Made by a program: the position numbers and the translations under genes
Assembly (NCBI GenBank): GCA_021462855.1
Contig: JAJTXQ010000009.1
Coordinates: 1 to 64,000, forward strand
Source of the DNA: Dehalococcoidia bacterium
Lineage (GTDB): Bacteria; Chloroflexota; Dehalococcoidia; DSTF01; JACRBR01
Direction of reading: 5' to 3'
DNA: 64,000 nt
In this document: in pieces, positions 91 through 51,256 of the stretch
Layout of the letters: every line of letters starts with the position of its first letter
Numbering within the stretch: position 1 is the stretch's first letter
The notes under the pieces: generated by a model
Databases searched by the model: none
Seen by the model: only the letters and a program-made list of their open reading frames with translations
What the model was told of the DNA's origin: nothing

Positions 91-1684
91 TCGGCGCGAG
101 GATCTCCACGCCAACGCACGCCGGCCCGGCCGATGGATGCACCGACGGGCTCGCCACCGAATCGCTGGTGACGCTGGCGCAGTTGTCGGTGTTCGCCGTC
201 ACCGCGAGCGCGGTGAACGTCAGCGTGATCGTACGCGAGGTGCCCGGCTCCCAGACCTGTGGATCGCCGTCGCCGGGATCATGCGTCAGGTTGTCCCAGG
301 TGAGCGTGCCCGCCGGCACCACCGACGTCGGCGCGAGGCTTGCGCTGACGAAGCTGAGTTTCGTCGGATCGAACGTATCGGTGACGTCCACGTTTTGCAG
401 ATCGGACGACTGCGCGCCGTTGCTGATCGTCAGCGAGTACGTCACCGTGCCGCCGACCGGCGCCTGCGCGCCGCTCGTCCGCGTCTTCTGCACGCTGATC
501 TGGCAAATGCGCTGCGCGATCTGCGTGAAGATGCTGCTGATGTCGCTCGGCGCGCCGGGGAAGTAGCCCCCCGGCGAGGCGATCGCCGCCAGCAGCGCCG
601 CGTCGCTGTCGCCAAGCTCGTAGCCGATGACGTAGAGGTACGTGCCGCCGTCCCTGATCTGCTGCGACCAGTACTGCGCGTAGACGTCGGCGCCATCGCC
701 GGAGAAGTTCGTCCCGCCTTCCACGGAGCCATCGCGGACGACGGCCAGTTCGTCCGTCATGCCTGGCGTGAAGTCGGTGCTGTCGTCCGGGGACGCCGCT
801 TCGACGGAGAAGCTGCCGTCGGCGTTCATGTCCAGGTACAGCGCGCCGTCGATGACGCGGAAGTTGTAGCCCGCTCCGAAGTTGTAGTCGTCGGCGCCCG
901 TGAGTGTGCCGCTGTTGTTGACATCGAACGCCTTGAGGCGCGCGGCGTTCCGTTGCGACTGGGTGCCACCGTTGATCTGCAGCAGGCCGTTGACGACGAC
1001 GAAGTCGGGCGTGCCGCCGCCGGGGGACGTCACGCTCAGGTCATCGCCCGAGTCGACGTACCCGTTGTCGTTCACGTCGAGGTACAGGTCGTTTTCCGTC
1101 CCGGTGTTGTCGATGTCGAACGGCATGTTCGCGGCGCCGTCGGACAGCAGCACCATGTAGTCGTTGGTGTCGGGGTCGGCGTCGGGGTCGGTGGGCTGCT
1201 CGAGCTGGTTCGCCGCGAGCCACAGGCCCGTGCCGAGGTTCGTGTAGCCGCTGGCGGCATACGCGTTGATGGCGGTGCGCATCGCGGTCGCGCTCGTGGT
1301 GAGCGCCTGGTCCGTCGTCGCGTTGGTGCTGAAGCTCACCGCCGCCATCTCGTGCGGCGAGAGGTCAGTGTCCATCGAGCCGCCGGCGAACGCGTCGACG
1401 AAGCCGATCGCCGCCGCCTTTGCGTTCGTCATCTTCGATGCCGGGGTGCCCATGCTGCCGGAACGGTCAAAGAGGAGGGCGATGTCCGTGGGGATCGGAC
1501 ACTCGACCGAGCCGGTGGCAAACGCCGTGTTGTTGAGGCCGCCATCGCCCGCCGGCAGCAGCACCGACGCGGCGAACGCCGCGACGATGACCGCCGGCAT
1601 CGTGGCGTACCTCAACAGGCCCAGGGCGCGTGCCCGGCGAGCGCCGGGCTGGTTGGCTCCCCCGCGAGCAATTCCTGCCTTCAT
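1..1684 (-). CDS. von Willebrand factor A domain surface protein, 3' end outside window
   Basis: This frame stays open from an ATG at 1682-1684 to the left edge (561 codons), so its C-terminus is missing. A GGGAGG ribosome binding site lies about 6 bases upstream. The N-terminus has a basic stretch and a hydrophobic segment (about residues 27-45), suggesting export. A VWA domain follows, with the MIDAS motif DRSGS at 73-77. Inside the VWA region is an insertion with EF-hand/dockerin-like calcium loops (DVNDNGYVDSGDD, DVNNSGTLTGADD, DMNADG). Next comes a DUF11-like beta domain (VQKTRTSGAQAPVGGTVTYS) and then the Thr/Pro linker. Likely a calcium- and metal-dependent adhesion or envelope protein; the ligand is unknown. 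Confidence 0.85.
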   Translation of the reverse strand, partial: MKAGIARGGANQPGARRARALGLLRYATMPAVIVAAFAASVLLPAGDGGLNNTAFATGSVECPIPTDIALLFDRSGSMGTPASKMTNAKAAAIGFVDAFAGGSMDTDLSPHEMAAVSFSTNATTDQALTTSATAMRTAINAYAASGYTNLGTGLWLAANQLEQPTDPDADPDTNDYMVLLSDGAANMPFDIDNTGTENDLYLDVNDNGYVDSGDDLSVTSPGGGTPDFVVVNGLLQINGGTQSQRNAARLKAFDVNNSGTLTGADDYNFGAGYNFRVIDGALYLDMNADGSFSVEAASPDDSTDFTPGMTDELAVVRDGSVEGGTNFSGDGADVYAQYWSQQIRDGGTYLYVIGYELGDSDAALLAAIASPGGYFPGAPSDISSIFTQIAQRICQISVQKTRTSGAQAPVGGTVTYSLTISNGAQSSDLQNVDVTDTFDPTKLSFVSASLAPTSVVPAGTLTWDNLTHDPGDGDPQVWEPGTSRTITLTFTALAVTANTDNCASVTSDSVASPSVHPSAGPACVGVEILAPTATPTNTPTNTPTPTNTPTNTPTPTNTPTN

Positions 1685-1836
1685 GCCGAGCCCTCCCTCT
1701 GGCATCGGGACATAGCGAGACAAGGTAGGAACGGTGCGGGGGACGTTCGATGGCGAGAGTAGACCAATCAGGGGCTCGCCGTCAATGGGCGATTGGGAGA
1801 AACACGAGTCAAAATGTGAACCTGCGGCGCCGCCGG

Positions 1837-3132
1837 TCAAGCGGCCGTGATGGCCGCATACTCCTTCCGGGCGTCATCGATCGCATGAGAGACGCCGCCG
1901 CCCATGAATCGCATCACGGCGAGCGCCAGGATGAGGTAGACCGCGGCCGCCGCCGCCATCACCACCGGCAGCCCCAGCCCGACCGCCAGCGCCGAGGCGC
2001 CGATGCCCGCGATCGGCATCGTCCCGTTGAACACGACGCCGTTCAGCGACATCACCCGCCCGCGGAACTCGCGCGGCGTCGACTCCTGCATCATCGACTG
2101 GACCAGGCCCAGCTGTGACGAGAACGAAAGCGAGACCAGCGTCCCGGCCGCGACCGCGACCGCCGGGTCCCGCGTCGCCGCCATGACGCCGACGCCGAGC
2201 GGCCCCGCCAGCGCGCCGAACCACATCCGCGCCGGACGCGCCTGCGTCGGCCACCAGACGAGCGCCAGCGCGCCCAACAGCGAGCCCACGCCCGAGGCCG
2301 CCCAGAACGCGCCGAGGACCGCAGATCCCTCGTGGAGCACGTTCTTGACGTAGAACGGCGAGAGGATCGCCATCATCGGGAACAGGAACGTCGTGTTGAG
2401 CGCGACCAACAACAGGAACATCCGCATGTACGGTCGCGCGCGCGTGTAGGCGATGCCTTCCTTGAGGTCGCCGATTGTCGAGCGCGGCGGGCCGGGCGGG
2501 TGCGGCGCCGGACGGTAGCGCACCACGACGAGGCTGAGGATGACGGCGACGAAGCTGGCGGCGTTCAGGAAGTACGTGGTCGACAGGCCGTACGCCGCGA
2601 TCACCACGCCGGCGAGCGCGGGGCCGATCATCCGCGATCCGTGGAACGTCGAGGAGTTCAGCCCGACGACCTGGCTGATCTTGTCTGGCGGCACGAGCTC
2701 GGGCATGAACGCCTGGTACGCCGGCATATCGTAGCCCGCGGCGACACCGAGCAGCGCCGTCGCGATGATGATCATCCATATCTCGGCGACGTCGAACAGC
2801 ACGAGCGCGCCGACGGCCGCCGCGAGCGCCGCCATCGCCGCCTGCGTGACGATGAGGATCATGCGCTTGTCGCCGCGGTCGGCGAGCACGCCGCCGAACA
2901 GCATCACCACGAGCATCGGCACGGCGTTCGCGAAGTTCACGATGCCGAGCGCGAACGCGGAGTTCCACAGCGCGAGCACGACCAGTCCCTGCGCCACCAT
3001 CTGCATCCACGTGCCGACCATCGACACGGCCTGGCCGGTCCAGACAACGCGGAAATCGCGCTCTCCAAGCACCGACATGGAGTCCGGGAGCCGCAGCCGC
3101 GGCAGTGCGCGCGGGGACGTGGTCGTCGCCAT
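1837..3132 (-). CDS. MFS transporter, EntS/MFS_3-like exporter
   Basis: A 431-residue integral membrane protein with about twelve hydrophobic segments. The loop-2 MFS signature is readable as GGVLADRGDKRM near residue 80. The short N-terminal tail followed by RDFRVVWTGQAVSMVGTWMQ matches the MFS_3 (transmembrane secretion effector, EntS-like) family, which exports siderophores, drugs or other small molecules. The substrate cannot be told from the sequence. It stands alone between the VWA gene and the divergent tRNA. Its start is preceded by TATTCT only six bases upstream and no Shine-Dalgarno sequence, suggesting a leaderless mRNA. Confidence 0.88.
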   Translation of the reverse strand: MATTTSPRALPRLRLPDSMSVLGERDFRVVWTGQAVSMVGTWMQMVAQGLVVLALWNSAFALGIVNFANAVPMLVVMLFGGVLADRGDKRMILIVTQAAMAALAAAVGALVLFDVAEIWMIIIATALLGVAAGYDMPAYQAFMPELVPPDKISQVVGLNSSTFHGSRMIGPALAGVVIAAYGLSTTYFLNAASFVAVILSLVVVRYRPAPHPPGPPRSTIGDLKEGIAYTRARPYMRMFLLLVALNTTFLFPMMAILSPFYVKNVLHEGSAVLGAFWAASGVGSLLGALALVWWPTQARPARMWFGALAGPLGVGVMAATRDPAVAVAAGTLVSLSFSSQLGLVQSMMQESTPREFRGRVMSLNGVVFNGTMPIAGIGASALAVGLGLPVVMAAAAAVYLILALAVMRFMGGGVSHAIDDARKEYAAITAA

Positions 3133-46098: not shown

Positions 46099-46494
46099 AT
46101 GACCGCTGGCACGCTCGACACCACCTTCGCCGCGCTCGCCGACCCGACCCGGCGCGCGATCCTCGCACGCCTCGCGCACGGCGGCGAGACCTCGGTCACG
46201 GAACTCGCATCGCCGTTCCGCATGACCCTTCCCGCCGTGTCGAAGCACCTCAAGGTGCTTGAGCGCGCCGGGCTGATCGAGCGCGGGCGCCGGGCGCAGT
46301 GGCGCCCCTGCCGGCTCGATGCCGAGCCGCTGCGCGAGGCCGCCGACTGGCTCGCCGGCTATCAGCAATTCTGGGAAGAACGCTTCGACCGCCTCGACGC
46401 CTACCTGCACGAACTGCAGACGGACGAGACGCCGGAGCGCGAAGCAACGCCGGACCGCACCAGCAACAGACACACAAGGGAGGAGAACCCATGA
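46099..46494 (+). CDS. ArsR-family repressor paired with SRPBCC protein
   Basis: 131 residues, winged-helix fold: FAALADPTRRAILARLAHGGETSVTELASPFRMTLPAVSKHLKVLERAGLIERGRRAQWRPCRLDAEPL. It lacks the CxC metal site of arsenic-type ArsR and belongs to the large non-metal branch that travels with AHSA1/SRPBCC proteins. A charged tail (DETPEREATPDRTSNRH) follows. The stop overlaps the next gene's ATG. Confidence 0.9.
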   Translation: MTAGTLDTTFAALADPTRRAILARLAHGGETSVTELASPFRMTLPAVSKHLKVLERAGLIERGRRAQWRPCRLDAEPLREAADWLAGYQQFWEERFDRLDAYLHELQTDETPEREATPDRTSNRHTREENP

Positions 46495-47504
46495 CCCAGG
46501 CGACCAGCAGCCTCAGCGTTACCCTGCCATCGGACCGCGAGATCGCGATGACCCGCGCATTCGACGCGCCGCGCCAGCTCGTCTTCGACGCGTGGACGAA
46601 GCCCGAGCATGTCCGCCGCTGGTTCGGCGCGGTCGAGGGGTACACCATGCCCGTCTGCGAGATCGACCTGCGCGCCGGCGGGGCGTGGCGCTGGGTAATG
46701 CGGGGCGCCGACGGCAGCGAGATGGAGATGTACGGCGAGTATCGCGAGATCGCGCCGCCCGACCGCCTCGTCAACACCGAGAACTTCGCCGGCGAATTCT
46801 TCGAGGCGATGGGCGGCGGCTCCGTCAACACCATGGTCCTCGAAGAACACGGCGGGCGCACGACGATGACGCTGACATCGCTCTACAAGTCGAAGGAGGC
46901 GCGCGATGCCGTCCTGCGCACCGGCTGGGAGAGCGGCGCCGGAGAGACGCTCGACCGCCTGGCCGAGATCCTCGCCGGCACGCGGGAAGACGGCACGCCG
47001 GTCACAAAGACGCTGCCCGGCGGCACGGCCTTCACCGTGCGCGGCGCGAGGGAGTTGCTCGTCGAGCGCTGGTTCAAGGCGCCGCGCGAGCTCGTCTTCG
47101 CCGCCTGGACCGAATGCGACCGGCTGATGAAATGGTGGGGGCCCCGCGAGTGGCCGCTCAGCCGCTGCACCATCGACCTGCGCGAGGGAGGGGTGTGGCA
47201 CTACTGCATGCGCGCGCGCGCCGACGGACAGGAATCCTGGGGCAAGGCAACGTACCAGCGCATCGCGCGGCCATCGCACCTCGTGTTCCGCGACTGCTTC
47301 TCGAACGCCGACGGTGACGAGATCCCGCCGTTCTCGCGCATGTCTGTCTCGTTCAGCGAGCACGACGGCGGCACGCTGATCACTAGCGTGTCGACGTTCG
47401 ACACGCCGGAGCAGATGCGCCAAGTGATCGCGATGGGCGTGATGGAAGGTCTGGGTGAAACGCTCGAGCTGCTCGCCGAGCACCTGGCCGAATCGCAGCG
47501 CTGA
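46491..47504 (+). CDS. Double SRPBCC/AHSA1 domain protein
   Basis: 337 residues made of two tandem AHSA1/SRPBCC domains of about 155 residues. The first has TRAFDAPRQLVFDAWTKPEHVRRWFG, the second ERWFKAPRELVFAAWTECDRLMKWWGP. Each ends in the helix pattern GxGETLxxLAEhLA. The fold makes a hydrophobic ligand pocket. Such proteins travel with ArsR-type repressors, but the ligand is unknown. GGAGG lies upstream and ATGA couples it to the repressor. Confidence 0.92.
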   Translation: MTQATSSLSVTLPSDREIAMTRAFDAPRQLVFDAWTKPEHVRRWFGAVEGYTMPVCEIDLRAGGAWRWVMRGADGSEMEMYGEYREIAPPDRLVNTENFAGEFFEAMGGGSVNTMVLEEHGGRTTMTLTSLYKSKEARDAVLRTGWESGAGETLDRLAEILAGTREDGTPVTKTLPGGTAFTVRGARELLVERWFKAPRELVFAAWTECDRLMKWWGPREWPLSRCTIDLREGGVWHYCMRARADGQESWGKATYQRIARPSHLVFRDCFSNADGDEIPPFSRMSVSFSEHDGGTLITSVSTFDTPEQMRQVIAMGVMEGLGETLELLAEHLAESQR

Positions 47505-47557: not shown

Positions 47558-47664
47558 CGTGCAGGCGCTACCGTACCGGCCGTCTCGGGAACGCAGCGCG
47601 CGGGAAACGCTCGCAACCTGCATCCGGCCGCCGCCGGACGATGTAATTCACCGTGTGGCCGGCG

Positions 47665-47670
47665 TACGAT
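47665..47670 (+). promoter_or_regulatory. Putative leaderless -10 element
   Basis: TACGAT ends six bases before the ATG at 47677; no Shine-Dalgarno sequence lies between. Confidence 0.45.
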
Positions 47671-47676
47671 GTCCGC

Positions 47677-48048
47677 ATGCACATCGTGCCGAAGCGGGGA
47701 CGCGGCCGCCCGCGCTACCCGGGCATCCTGACGCCGGCCGAGCTGCGCGTGTTGCGCGGGCTGCGCGGCGGGAAGACCAACGCGGCGATCGCGGCGGACC
47801 TCGGCGTCAGCGTCAACACGGTGCGCACGCACGTATCAAGCGTGCTCGGCAAGCTCGCCCTGCCGAGCCGCCGCGAGCTCGCAGCGATGGAGGAAGCCAT
47901 GACCACCAAGCGTGACCTGAAATGCTCGTTCTGCCTGAAGTCGGAGCACGAAGTGCAATATCTGCTCGGCGGCGCCGGCGCATCGTACATCTGCGGCGCC
48001 TGCATCGACACGTGCAACCGCATCATCGCCGGGCAGAAGGCGGGGTGA
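47677..48048 (+). CDS. LuxR-type HTH fused to ClpX-type C4 zinc finger
   Basis: 123 residues. Residues 18-68 are a LuxR/GerE-type helix-turn-helix (LTPAELRVLRGLRGGKTNAAIAADLGVSVNTVRTHVSSVLGKL). Residues 80-117 match the ClpX N-terminal zinc-binding domain, with C83-x2-C86 and C106-x2-C109. In ClpX this module dimerises and recognises adaptors and substrates; here there is no AAA+ part. A second ATG (M75, 47899) is preceded by GGAGG five bases upstream and would make the zinc domain alone. The start at 47677 appears leaderless. Role unknown; possibly a regulator whose stability or activity is controlled through Clp-like contacts. Confidence 0.88.
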   Translation: MHIVPKRGRGRPRYPGILTPAELRVLRGLRGGKTNAAIAADLGVSVNTVRTHVSSVLGKLALPSRRELAAMEEAMTTKRDLKCSFCLKSEHEVQYLLGGAGASYICGACIDTCNRIIAGQKAG

Positions 48049-48123: not shown

Positions 48124-48804
48124 CTACTCCGCCGCGCGCACGCACCACGCGCCGTTGGTCGTGCCAATGCCGGCGGGAACCGCATCGCCCGGCTGTCCGG
48201 GATTGAAGTTCGTGAGGCGGACGGCCCACGCCCAGTTGCCCGTCCACGAGATGTCCCGCGTCGTCGTCCAGAAGCTGCCGGAGGACGGCACGTTCGTGAA
48301 GGGGTGTCCCGGCGGCAACGAGGGCGACGGCGCGACGACGCCCGGATCGATCAGCGACATCAGCTCACTGGCAGTCGGCAGACGCCAGCCGCGACGTTCG
48401 CCCTTGGTCAGGTTCGCGCAACTCAGCCGCGCGCTCTCCCACCCTTGGAGCGCATAGTTCGAGAGGTCGCGCTGCCACACCAGTCCGGTCTCGTGGTCCA
48501 GCACGCCGTGGTAGGTGTCAAAACAGGTGGTGTCGTTGCAGACCCGGATGAGCAGGACGCACTCGAACCGCGACGAGCCGCAGCCGCTCACATCGCCGTT
48601 CGTCGAGTCGAGTTGCAGCACCCAGTCCGGCGGCATCTGGTCGAGTTGTTGCAGCGTCGGGGCGGGCGTCCCGGGCGGGTCCATCGGGCCCCCGGAGGCT
48701 CGGCCGGTGAACATCAGGAGCGCCATCACCGCGAGCGCGCCCACGGCAATCCAGCCGGCCCGCGCCAGCAGCCGCCACGCCGGGGCGAGCATGCTCCCGC
48801 TCAT
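48124..48804 (-). CDS. Secreted DUF1566 (Lcl C-terminal-like) protein
   Basis: 226 residues from ATG 48804 (ATGA overlap with the upstream gene's stop). A signal/anchor helix (WIAVGALAVMALLMFTG) precedes a mature region starting ASGGPMDPPGTPAPT. The DUF1566/Lcl core is marked by CGSSRFECVLL, GVLDHETGLVWQRDLSN, GWRLPTASELMSLIDP, LPPGHPF and the final WCVRAAE. Such domains occur in surface collagen-like and adhesion proteins. It is the second gene of a tandem pair of paralogues. Confidence 0.85.
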   Translation of the reverse strand: MSGSMLAPAWRLLARAGWIAVGALAVMALLMFTGRASGGPMDPPGTPAPTLQQLDQMPPDWVLQLDSTNGDVSGCGSSRFECVLLIRVCNDTTCFDTYHGVLDHETGLVWQRDLSNYALQGWESARLSCANLTKGERRGWRLPTASELMSLIDPGVVAPSPSLPPGHPFTNVPSSGSFWTTTRDISWTGNWAWAVRLTNFNPGQPGDAVPAGIGTTNGAWCVRAAE

Positions 48805-49457
48805 GAGGCGCCTCGCACACACCACGCGCCAGTGCTACCACCACCTCCACCACCTGTTCCCAGCGCGAAGCCCGGAACGAAGCCCGGTGCCCGGTAGTAG
48901 ACCATGTAGACATCGTCACCCGAGCCGTCAACGACCTCGTACCACGACGATGTCCACACCCACAGCGCCACGGGCAGGCTGGTGAACGGGTGACCGGGTG
49001 GCAACGAAGACTCGCTAGGGCCGATGACGGTTGGGTCGAGCAGACTCGACGCTTCCCCGAGCGTAGGCAGCCGCCAGCCGGCACGGCCACCACCCCGATA
49101 ATTGAGGCAGGCGCTCATCGCCCCCTCCCAGCTCAGCGCGGCGTTCCAGTTTGCCAGGTCGCTCTGCCAGACGAGGCCGGTCTCGCGGTCCAGCACGCCC
49201 TCCCATGCGAAGTGGCAGTTGGGATTGCAGATTACGCGCGACATGACGCACTCGAAGCGCGCTGAGCCGCAGCCGGACTGCGCGGACAGCGTGAACATCC
49301 AGTCGGGGGGCATCTGGTCCAGCGACTGCATGGTGGGGCCCGGCGTCCCGACAGGGTCGAGCGACCCGCCGCGCGCGTCCCGGGCGGCGGCGGCCAGCAC
49401 GGCGATCGCGAGCGCGCCCGCCAGCGCCCAAACGCCCCTGCCTGCAACAAACCGCAT
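48801..49457 (-). CDS. Secreted DUF1566 (Lcl C-terminal-like) protein, paralogue
   Basis: 218 residues from ATG 49457 (GAGGTGG upstream). A signal helix (GVWALAGALAIAVLAAAARDARG) is followed by GGSLDPVGTPGPT, then CGSARFECVMSR, GVLDRETGLVWQSDLANW, AGWRLPTLGEASSLLDP, LPPGHPF and final WCVRGAS. Same order of motifs as the downstream gene, showing recent duplication. The frame stays open for another 120 codons upstream, but that part has no coding features and would hide the signal peptide. Confidence 0.83.
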   Translation of the reverse strand: MRFVAGRGVWALAGALAIAVLAAAARDARGGSLDPVGTPGPTMQSLDQMPPDWMFTLSAQSGCGSARFECVMSRVICNPNCHFAWEGVLDRETGLVWQSDLANWNAALSWEGAMSACLNYRGGGRAGWRLPTLGEASSLLDPTVIGPSESSLPPGHPFTSLPVALWVWTSSWYEVVDGSGDDVYMVYYRAPGFVPGFALGTGGGGGGSTGAWCVRGAS

Positions 49458-49813
49458 CACAGCCACCTCGCGCCGTTGTCGCTGCGCGCGCGATCGTATG
49501 CCTGCCCTGGCGCGTTGTCTAGATGCATACGGTGGCACATCTGGTAGTTCGTCCAGTAGTTCGTCAAGTCCTTCGTAATCCGCCAATCCTTCGCCCCGCG
49601 CCAGAGCCGCCCTCGGGCATCCTCGACGCGCCGCAGCGCCGCAGCGCCGCGACGGCGGGCCGGCGAGGCCGCCGAGCGACCCCGGGCGGAGCCGGCGCCT
49701 CCGCCGTAGGTCTGACCGCTGCTCCATCGCGCGCTCGATGTGACGCTCGACGCCGCCACCCGACAATGCGGGCATCGAGTCACATATCACGCAGCACAAG
49801 GAGCACGCCGGAC
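49458..49813. other. Intergenic region with a low-GC repeat patch
   Basis: No gene is firmly supported in these 356 bases between divergent genes. The stretch 49540-49600 is much lower in GC than its surroundings and carries a 9-base word, tagttcgtc, twice at a 12-base period (49545-49553, 49557-49565), then tccttcg twice. On the minus strand one frame is open across it but lacks gene-like signals. The promoter of the DUF1566 pair must lie here. Confidence 0.5.
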
Positions 49814-51256
49814 ATGACCAGGACATCTTCGAAGATCACTACGCCAGCCACCGCCGCCCGGGGCGCCACGCGGGACTTCTTCGCCGGCCTCCGCGGCCGC
49901 ATCGCCGGCGAGATCGTCACGCCGGACAGCGAGCGCTACGACGACGCGAGGCAGGTGCAGATCGCGCAATTCGATCGGCGGCCGAGCGCGGTCGTGCGGG
50001 CGACGTCGACCGCGGACGTAGCGGAGGCCGTGCGATTCGCGCGCGAGCAGGGCATCCCGCTGGCGGTGCGCAGCGGCGGACACAGCATCGCCGGCCTGAG
50101 CATGGTCGACGGCGGCGTCACCGTCGACCTCTCGGGCATGAAGCGCGTCGAGGTCGACGGGGCGACGGGACGGGCGCGCGTCCAGGCGGGCGCCACCTCG
50201 GGCGATGTCGCCGGGCCCGCGCACGAGCACGGACTGGCGATCACGACGGGCGACACGTCGAGCGTCGGCATGGGCGGCCTCGTGACCGGCGGCGGCATCG
50301 GCTACATGGCGCGCAAGTTCGGCCTGACGATCGATAGCCTCGTCTCGGCGCAGGTCGTGACGGCCGACGGCAAGGTACGCACCGCGAGCGCGGCCGCGCA
50401 CCCGGACCTGTTCTGGGCGATCCGCGGCGGCGGCGGCAACTTCGGCATCGTCACGGAGTTCGAGTTGCAGCTGGCGCCCGTGCGCGACATCCTCGGCGGC
50501 GCGATCGTGCTGCCGGCAACGCGCGAGGTGATCCGCGGGTACCTCGACTACATGCCCACCGCACCCGACGGCCTGACCACGCTGGTCAACGTCTGGCCGG
50601 CGCCGCCCGCGCCGTTCATCCCGCAGGAGTTCGTCGGCACGCCGTGCGTGATGATCCTCCCCGTGTGGACCGGCGACTTCGAGGAGGGGCAGCGCGCGAT
50701 CGCGCCGCTGCGCGCGCTGGCGGAGCCGATCGCCGACACCGTCGCGCCGATGCCGTACCCGGCGATCTACAACTACACGCAAGAGCTGACGAACCGGCAC
50801 GGCGTCGCGCTCCGGTCGATGTTCTCCGACGAGTTGAGTGACGCCGCGATCGACGCGGTGGTCGCCGCGGTCAGCGCGCCGACGTCGGCGGTGCCGCTGG
50901 TGCACATCCGCGGCCAGGGCGGCGCCATCGCCCGCGTAGCGCGCGATGCCACCGCGTTCGCGCACCGCACGCAGAAGTACTTCGTCTCCGTCATCTCGGT
51001 GTGGATGCCCGAGGACGGGCAGGGCGCGGCGCACGAAGCGTGGGCCGACGCGCTGTGGCGGCAGCTGCGGCCCGAAGGCAACGGCGCGTACGTGAACTTC
51101 CTGCAGAACGAGGAGCCGGCGCGGATCCGCGACGCCTACCCGGCGGAGACGCTGCGCCGCCTGCGCGAGATCAAGACGACGTACGACCCGGAGAACATGT
51201 TCCGGTTCAACCAGAACATCCAGCCGCTCGCCGGCGCCGCGACGCAGGCCGCGTAG
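49814..51256 (+). CDS. FAD-binding (PCMH/berberine-bridge) oxidoreductase
   Basis: 480 residues. The PCMH FAD domain contains RSGGHSIAG, where H90 is the probable covalent FAD attachment, and TTGDTSSVGMGGLVTGGGIGYMARKFG; the second covalent Cys of bicovalent family members is replaced, so FAD is probably linked once. The BBE domain ends the protein (YVNFLQNEEPARIRDAYPAETLRRLREIKTTYDPENMFRFNQNI). It oxidises a sugar or secondary metabolite with O2 or another acceptor; the substrate is unknown. AAGGAG precedes the ATG. Confidence 0.93.
   Translation: MTRTSSKITTPATAARGATRDFFAGLRGRIAGEIVTPDSERYDDARQVQIAQFDRRPSAVVRATSTADVAEAVRFAREQGIPLAVRSGGHSIAGLSMVDGGVTVDLSGMKRVEVDGATGRARVQAGATSGDVAGPAHEHGLAITTGDTSSVGMGGLVTGGGIGYMARKFGLTIDSLVSAQVVTADGKVRTASAAAHPDLFWAIRGGGGNFGIVTEFELQLAPVRDILGGAIVLPATREVIRGYLDYMPTAPDGLTTLVNVWPAPPAPFIPQEFVGTPCVMILPVWTGDFEEGQRAIAPLRALAEPIADTVAPMPYPAIYNYTQELTNRHGVALRSMFSDELSDAAIDAVVAAVSAPTSAVPLVHIRGQGGAIARVARDATAFAHRTQKYFVSVISVWMPEDGQGAAHEAWADALWRQLRPEGNGAYVNFLQNEEPARIRDAYPAETLRRLREIKTTYDPENMFRFNQNIQPLAGAATQAA

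Follow-up and report, generated by a model that had tools for sequence, protein, structure and literature searches.

A small LuxR-type helix-turn-helix protein with a ClpX-type zinc finger in a Dehalococcoidia genome, and the promoter box that it shares with a family of membrane-helix proteins

Cyanobacterial sigma factors that carry a ClpX-type zinc finger have already been published, and zf-C4_ClpX was found to make up 6.29% of accessory domains (PMC11119718). The N-terminal domain of ClpX itself is a dimer in known structures; the fold of CsfB resembles this domain, and those who solved the structure of CsfB were aware of no dimers with this fold other than CsfB and ClpX (PMC5890618). Leaderless genes have a signature of their own, namely a TANNNT element about 12 bp upstream of the start codon and no Shine-Dalgarno (SD) sequence (PMC3160421).

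The locus described here lies in a window of 64,000 nucleotides, the whole stretch of DNA that was analysed, from a Dehalococcoidia bacterium. It contains a gene in which a predicted LuxR-type helix-turn-helix (HTH) is followed by a ClpX-type zinc-binding domain (ZBD), with the following features.

47636-47650 (+): promoter box GGACGATGTAATTCA, at -41 to -27 relative to where transcription is predicted to start, candidate operator for the HTH that the gene encodes
47665-47670 (+): -10 element TACGAT, six bases 5' of the ATG (-12 to -7), assigned from the enrichment of TANNNT at gaps 6 and 7
47677-48048 (+): HTH-ZBD fusion gene, 123 aa, ATG at 47677, stop codon at 48046-48048
47725-47889 (+): predicted LuxR/NarL-type (GerE) HTH, residues 17-71, from Pfam, AF2 helices and structural matches
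47827-47829 (+): codon of T51, in the recognition helix SVNTVRTHV of the HTH
47889-47893 (+): internal SD-like GGAGG, five bases before ATG 47899, anti-SD duplex -9.3 kcal/mol
47899-48048 (+): possible internal ORF from M75, 49 aa, zinc finger alone, proposed from the sequence; the domain folds alone in AF2
47920-48030 (+): ClpX-type C4 zinc finger, residues 82-118, predicted ligands C83, C86, C106 and C109, from Pfam, 2ds5 and Foldseek

Both domains scored above their Pfam cut-offs, the N-terminal one as GerE (E 7e-14, 51.7 bits, cut-off 23.5) and the C-terminal one as zf-C4_ClpX (E 4e-12, 46.3 bits, cut-off 27). No AAA+ domain was found in the protein by Pfam, and the ORF stops 5 residues past the finger; the claim of an initial sequence-only reading, that an HTH and a ClpX ZBD are fused here without an AAA+ domain, was thus borne out. 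A receiver or autoinducer-binding domain was also absent from the Pfam results, and only a 16-residue arm lies N-terminal to the HTH. AF2 placed helices at residues 20-30, 35-42, 46-59 and 65-76 with a core pLDDT of about 80-90, which gives a tetra-helical NarL-type fold. The best structural matches were nearly all of the LuxR/NarL type (Z 6.5-7.8), with RcsB, VqmA, NarL and GerE at Z 6.8-7.8. These Z scores are middling, and the predicted LuxR/NarL identity of the HTH is carried by the sequence match. The structural search with the full model listed only HTH matches, so the finger was predicted and searched alone. It was modelled with a pLDDT of 88.7 and matched the E. coli ClpX ZBD in Foldseek with an rmsd of 0.5-0.7 A over 37 columns; its PDB sequence match was 2ds5 (E 4e-8).

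The fusion gene is real, because a full-length relative exists and its codon statistics are near those of called genes, the coding potential per codon being 0.27 and 0.22 for the two halves of the fusion and 0.29 for the median called gene. An assembly chimera or a pseudogene was ruled out by the occurrence of that relative in another genome. Upstream of the gene, 46099-46494 and 46494-47504 (+) encode an ArsR-type regulator and then a protein with two tandem AHSA1 domains, a common pair; downstream, 48124-48825 and 48801-49826 (-) encode two adjoining, related Lcl C-terminal-domain (Lcl_C) proteins that are probably exported.

The distribution of the fusion was surveyed in 99 near genomes, 393 genomes of the class and 400 of the phylum, samples that overlap. 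Besides its own genome, the whole fusion was present in one genome only (G005), from the same family and another genus.

L056 of G005, 1489-1866 (-): full-length relative, 125 aa, 47% identity over the alignment, four Cys kept

The sequence-only reading had suggested a survey of related genomes for HTH-ZBD fusions. Such a fusion does exist in a relative, but in only one among the 393 class genomes. The fusion is therefore rare, and its distribution is patchy, since a second genome of the genus of G005 (96% complete) does not have it. The two loci share no neighbourhood: AHSA1 and Lcl_C genes flank the fusion gene, and erythromycin esterase and GH43-like genes flank L056. A public genome scan with the full protein returned 47 loci, all of them HTH-only, and a ClpX finger was found near the HTH in none of the 47. 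A match on a Pararhizobium plasmid over residues 18-116 proved to be an ordinary response regulator. Among viral contigs, single-sequence or A1 queries found nothing related to the fusion or to the finger; a broader finger alignment recovered ClpX and proteins of 85-125 aa with a C-terminal finger, which are numerous on prophage contigs, and none with a LuxR HTH.

The start of the gene was compared with others in 464 kb of the source genome, that is, the window and 400 kb of further stretches, on which the statistics for this genome are based. Of the 173 ORFs that begin with ATG, 22 had TANNNT at a gap of 6 or 7 bases from the start codon, against about 1 for any other gap. The full-length start had been read from the sequence as leaderless, and with TACGAT at gap 6, no SD upstream of ATG 47677 and a spacing that is strongly enriched in the genome, a leaderless start is well supported. 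The same layout is kept in the relative L056 (TAGACT-N6-ATG). GTG 47653, which would give a protein of 131 aa, was rejected as a start, because transcription is predicted to start downstream of it and L056 lacks an equivalent start codon.

The HTH of the fusion was closest to those of genes in the class that encode an N-terminal LuxR HTH and a membrane helix, with the same RGRP arm. About 65 genes of this family were sampled, with up to ten per genome. In their products the arm and HTH are followed, some 25 residues on, by a membrane helix and then by an extracytoplasmic part, which in several of the scanned genes took the form of a beta-propeller (PD40/TolB, YCF48/BNR, NHL, RCC1). No published description of N-terminal LuxR HTH proteins of this class with a membrane helix and a beta-propeller was found in the literature. 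In the fusion protein the hydrophobic stretch after the HTH is absent and the ClpX finger stands instead; the fusion is a relative of this family and not a membrane member of it.

The promoters of the sampled family genes share a box, about GGGTRRKGWAAWTCG, located 13-14 nt before a leaderless -10 element. The visible consensus served to seed a position weight matrix (PWM), and both the fusion gene and L056 were kept out of its training. With this matrix the box scored above the 99% shuffle level in 64 of 68 family upstream regions; TANNNT followed it after 13-14 nt in 60 of the 68, with the start codon most often six bases further on. The box-bearing upstream regions of N-terminal LuxR HTH genes are L056-L073, L095-L112 and L285-L324, and in some family promoters (L063, L320 and L321) there are two tandem copies about 20 nt apart. 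Consistent with this spacing, the box GGACGATGTAATTCA of the fusion gene sits 14 nt before its -10 element; it scored 15.1 bits on the matrix, a value reached by 0.15% of shuffled upstream regions. In L056 only the core GATGTAAT and the spacing are kept: the core lies 16-17 nt before the -10 element, and the box scored 4.9 bits, with 12% of shuffles as good. The possibility that GATGTAAT is a general -35 element of leaderless genes was rejected, as other leaderless promoters show no such motif. The sequence ACGATGT occurs twice at the fusion promoter, 28 bp apart, at 47638-47644 within the box and at 47666-47672 over the -10 element; the second copy could be a repressor half-site or merely the -10.

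Recognition-helix residues near position 51 touch bases in NarL-DNA complexes. Across 63 family genes, T or S at residue 51 was accompanied by A at base 6 of the box in 18 of 19 cases, and Y, F or another residue in 0 of 44 (Fisher 7e-15); the family genes are related and these counts are not independent, and with distinct combinations only the Fisher value was 3e-12. The sole exception in the whole set was L065 of G014. Both held-out genes fit the rule, the fusion gene with T51 and GGACGATG, and L056 with S and GGCCGATG. A partial Mantel test that controlled for the rest of the HTH linked the 5' half of the box to the recognition helix (r 0.34, 0 of 1000 permutations), and no covariation with the helix was detected for the 3' half. 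The two states coexist, each paired with its own box, in G011, G079, G132, G200, G226, G234 and G327. The association between helix residue and box base across the family is a new result.

Because the 5' half of the box covaries with each gene's own recognition helix, we infer that the HTHs of the family, that of the fusion included, bind their own promoters. Instead of being bound by the HTH encoded downstream, the box might serve a dedicated alternative sigma factor as its -35 element, or it might be a site for some other regulator; its -35 distance, the lack of covariation in its 3' half and its occurrence before other genes, where a shared factor could read it, agree with such a role. A shared sigma factor, however, would not give two residue-base pairings within single genomes, and the 5' half tracks each gene's own helix; we regard a role of the box for a sigma factor or another regulator in place of the gene's own HTH as quite improbable. 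Other genes preceded by the box encode exported proteins: a search of seven genomes for the box and -10 element gave 36 sites, about half of them at HTH genes, and a control with the reversed pattern gave 0. In HTH-rich genomes, L326-L345 have the box and -10 element before genes for lipoprotein, LysM, solute-binding and other exported proteins, and the sites before exported-protein genes are a probable regulon in those genomes. In the source genome the site at the fusion gene was the sole match with the two patterns tried, a search in which weaker sites are possible, and its own promoter is the only target seen for the fusion HTH there. The family as a whole looks like a large family of self-regulating one-component proteins.

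LuxR-type HTHs commonly act as dimers. Since the finger takes the place of the sensor part, and since known structures show the ClpX finger as a dimer, the simplest role for it, by analogy, is probably that of a dimerisation and input module, with zinc, thiol state or a peptide as the possible input. The main rival to this role is a link to proteolysis, whereby the finger would bind ClpX, in a mixed ZBD dimer, or its adaptors, and ClpXP would degrade or receive the autoregulator so that its level reports the protease load. Two things speak for it, a normal clpX gene elsewhere in the source genome and the close match in sequence and fold to the ZBD of ClpX, to which substrates and the SspB tail bind (ZBD-XB complex, 2ds8); the interaction is a candidate only, however, and the finger is about 40-43% identical to that of the genome's own ClpX. 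Such a link appears unlikely, and dimerisation and input are preferred here.

The sequence-only reading had also placed GGAGG five bases before ATG 47899 (M75), leaving 49 residues, and these coordinates are exact. The GGAGG-N5-ATG lies precisely at the border between HTH and finger, with M75 placed by AF2 in the final turn of the fourth HTH helix. Among 2211 internal in-frame ATGs in the source genome, 1.4% had a duplex as strong as -9.3, or 0.10 per gene; the internal SD is therefore unusual for one site and not remarkable genome-wide. The GGAGG arises from the codons ATG GAG GAA (Met-Glu-Glu), and in the predicted mRNA fold two of the five SD bases were almost fully paired and two mostly paired. 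The site is not conserved in the sole full-length relative: L056 has a GTG at the M75 column, with a duplex of -5.0, which is reached by 20% of internal GTGs.

It had been proposed that one frame yields two products, the leaderless full-length regulator and a free 49-residue finger that would antagonise it as a heterodimer or compete for the partner of ClpX. The SD and ATG on which that proposal rested are present, but the conservation of both, as judged from one relative, failed. Several observations are in keeping with such a device: the position and strength of the site, a finger predicted to fold alone, and the existence of intragenic C-terminal antagonists in RpnL/RpnS (PMC10327210). There is also an independent parallel in Tolypothrix PCC 7910, where the ECF sigma factor from a plasmid gene (L093 1530-2354, WP_167727975) carries a ClpX finger at its C terminus and the gene has AAGGAG-N9-ATG in frame just before the finger, an SD as good as that at 3.7% of internal ATGs on that plasmid. 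Against this stand the GTG without SD in the relative, the origin of GGAGG from Met-Glu-Glu codons, the pairing of most of the SD and the frequency of equally strong sites, and a two-product device of this kind is rather improbable; the internal start hints faintly at a second product.

Rather than marking a second start that is conserved, the internal SD and ATG most likely arose by chance or were left as a relic by the fusion. As a relic, they would stem from a separate finger gene that was joined in frame behind an HTH gene together with its own SD and ATG, signals that are now functionless. Two unrelated fusions of a DNA-binding domain and a ZBD have an SD and ATG directly before the finger, L056 keeps an NTG codon at the M75 column with the SD gone, and prophages often encode small proteins that have a ClpX finger without being ClpX. 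Such an origin is nevertheless doubtful, as no ancestor of the finger was found in unfused form and each site alone can be explained by chance. The start signals before the finger in these fusions may be relic or device, and two cases do not decide. ClpX fingers have been acquired by DNA-binding proteins more than once. A viral contig (L161 796-1704) encodes a 303-aa protein with a C-terminal ClpX finger and an N-terminal part that looks ParB-like by eye; this part had no Pfam match.

Taken together, the data make it reasonably probable that the gene encodes a soluble, leaderless one-component autoregulator from the HTH-membrane-propeller family in which a ClpX finger has replaced the membrane sensor. 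On this reading a small soluble transcription factor would be made from a leaderless mRNA, and its N-terminal LuxR-type HTH would bind GGACGATGTAATTC, the box in the -35 position of the gene's promoter; the gene would thereby regulate itself, as the covariation suggests. The protein would derive from the class-wide family with HTH, membrane helix and extracytoplasmic beta-propeller; the sensor part of that family would have been exchanged for the finger, which would likely serve in dimerisation and as the input for zinc, thiol state or a peptide ligand. A more far-reaching version, to which we give little credence, is that the membrane one-component regulators of the class each name their own operator through a helix-to-base code, and that the fusion is a soluble offshoot whose finger couples it to ClpXP and which is possibly tuned by free finger translated from the internal start. 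The link between helix and box turns an anonymous HTH family into testable self-regulating switches with predicted operators, and it gives an orphan fusion gene a predicted DNA target. The fusion is also a natural reuse of the ClpX finger outside ClpX, useful for asking what the finger does alone.

As a transcription factor with a ClpX finger, the fusion is a rare variant of something known. Its finger shares the C4 ligands and treble-clef fold of the ClpX N-terminal zinc-binding domain (2ds5-2ds8, 1ovx); in ClpX this domain precedes an AAA+ unfoldase, whereas here it is attached to an HTH. The cyanobacterial ECF proteins with zf-C4_ClpX are likewise HTH proteins that bind DNA, have a ClpX finger at the C terminus and lack an AAA+ domain, and the Tolypothrix gene, like the fusion gene, has an SD and ATG before the finger, but those proteins have sigma regions 2 and 4 rather than a LuxR HTH and belong to another phylum. 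GerE and PedR are very small LuxR regulators which, as in the fusion protein, have no receiver or autoinducer domain; GerE matched the fusion HTH in structure (Z 6.8) and PedR was a weak NCBIfam match, and both lack the zinc finger that the fusion protein has. The RpnL/RpnS genes-within-genes offer a model in which translation from an internal start yields a C-terminal antagonist of the complete protein, whereas the second product of the fusion gene is only putative and its internal start is not conserved. The HTH-membrane-propeller family resembles the fusion in its HTH, RGRP arm, promoter box and leaderless layout; it differs in having a membrane helix and a propeller, in place of which the fusion carries the ClpX finger.
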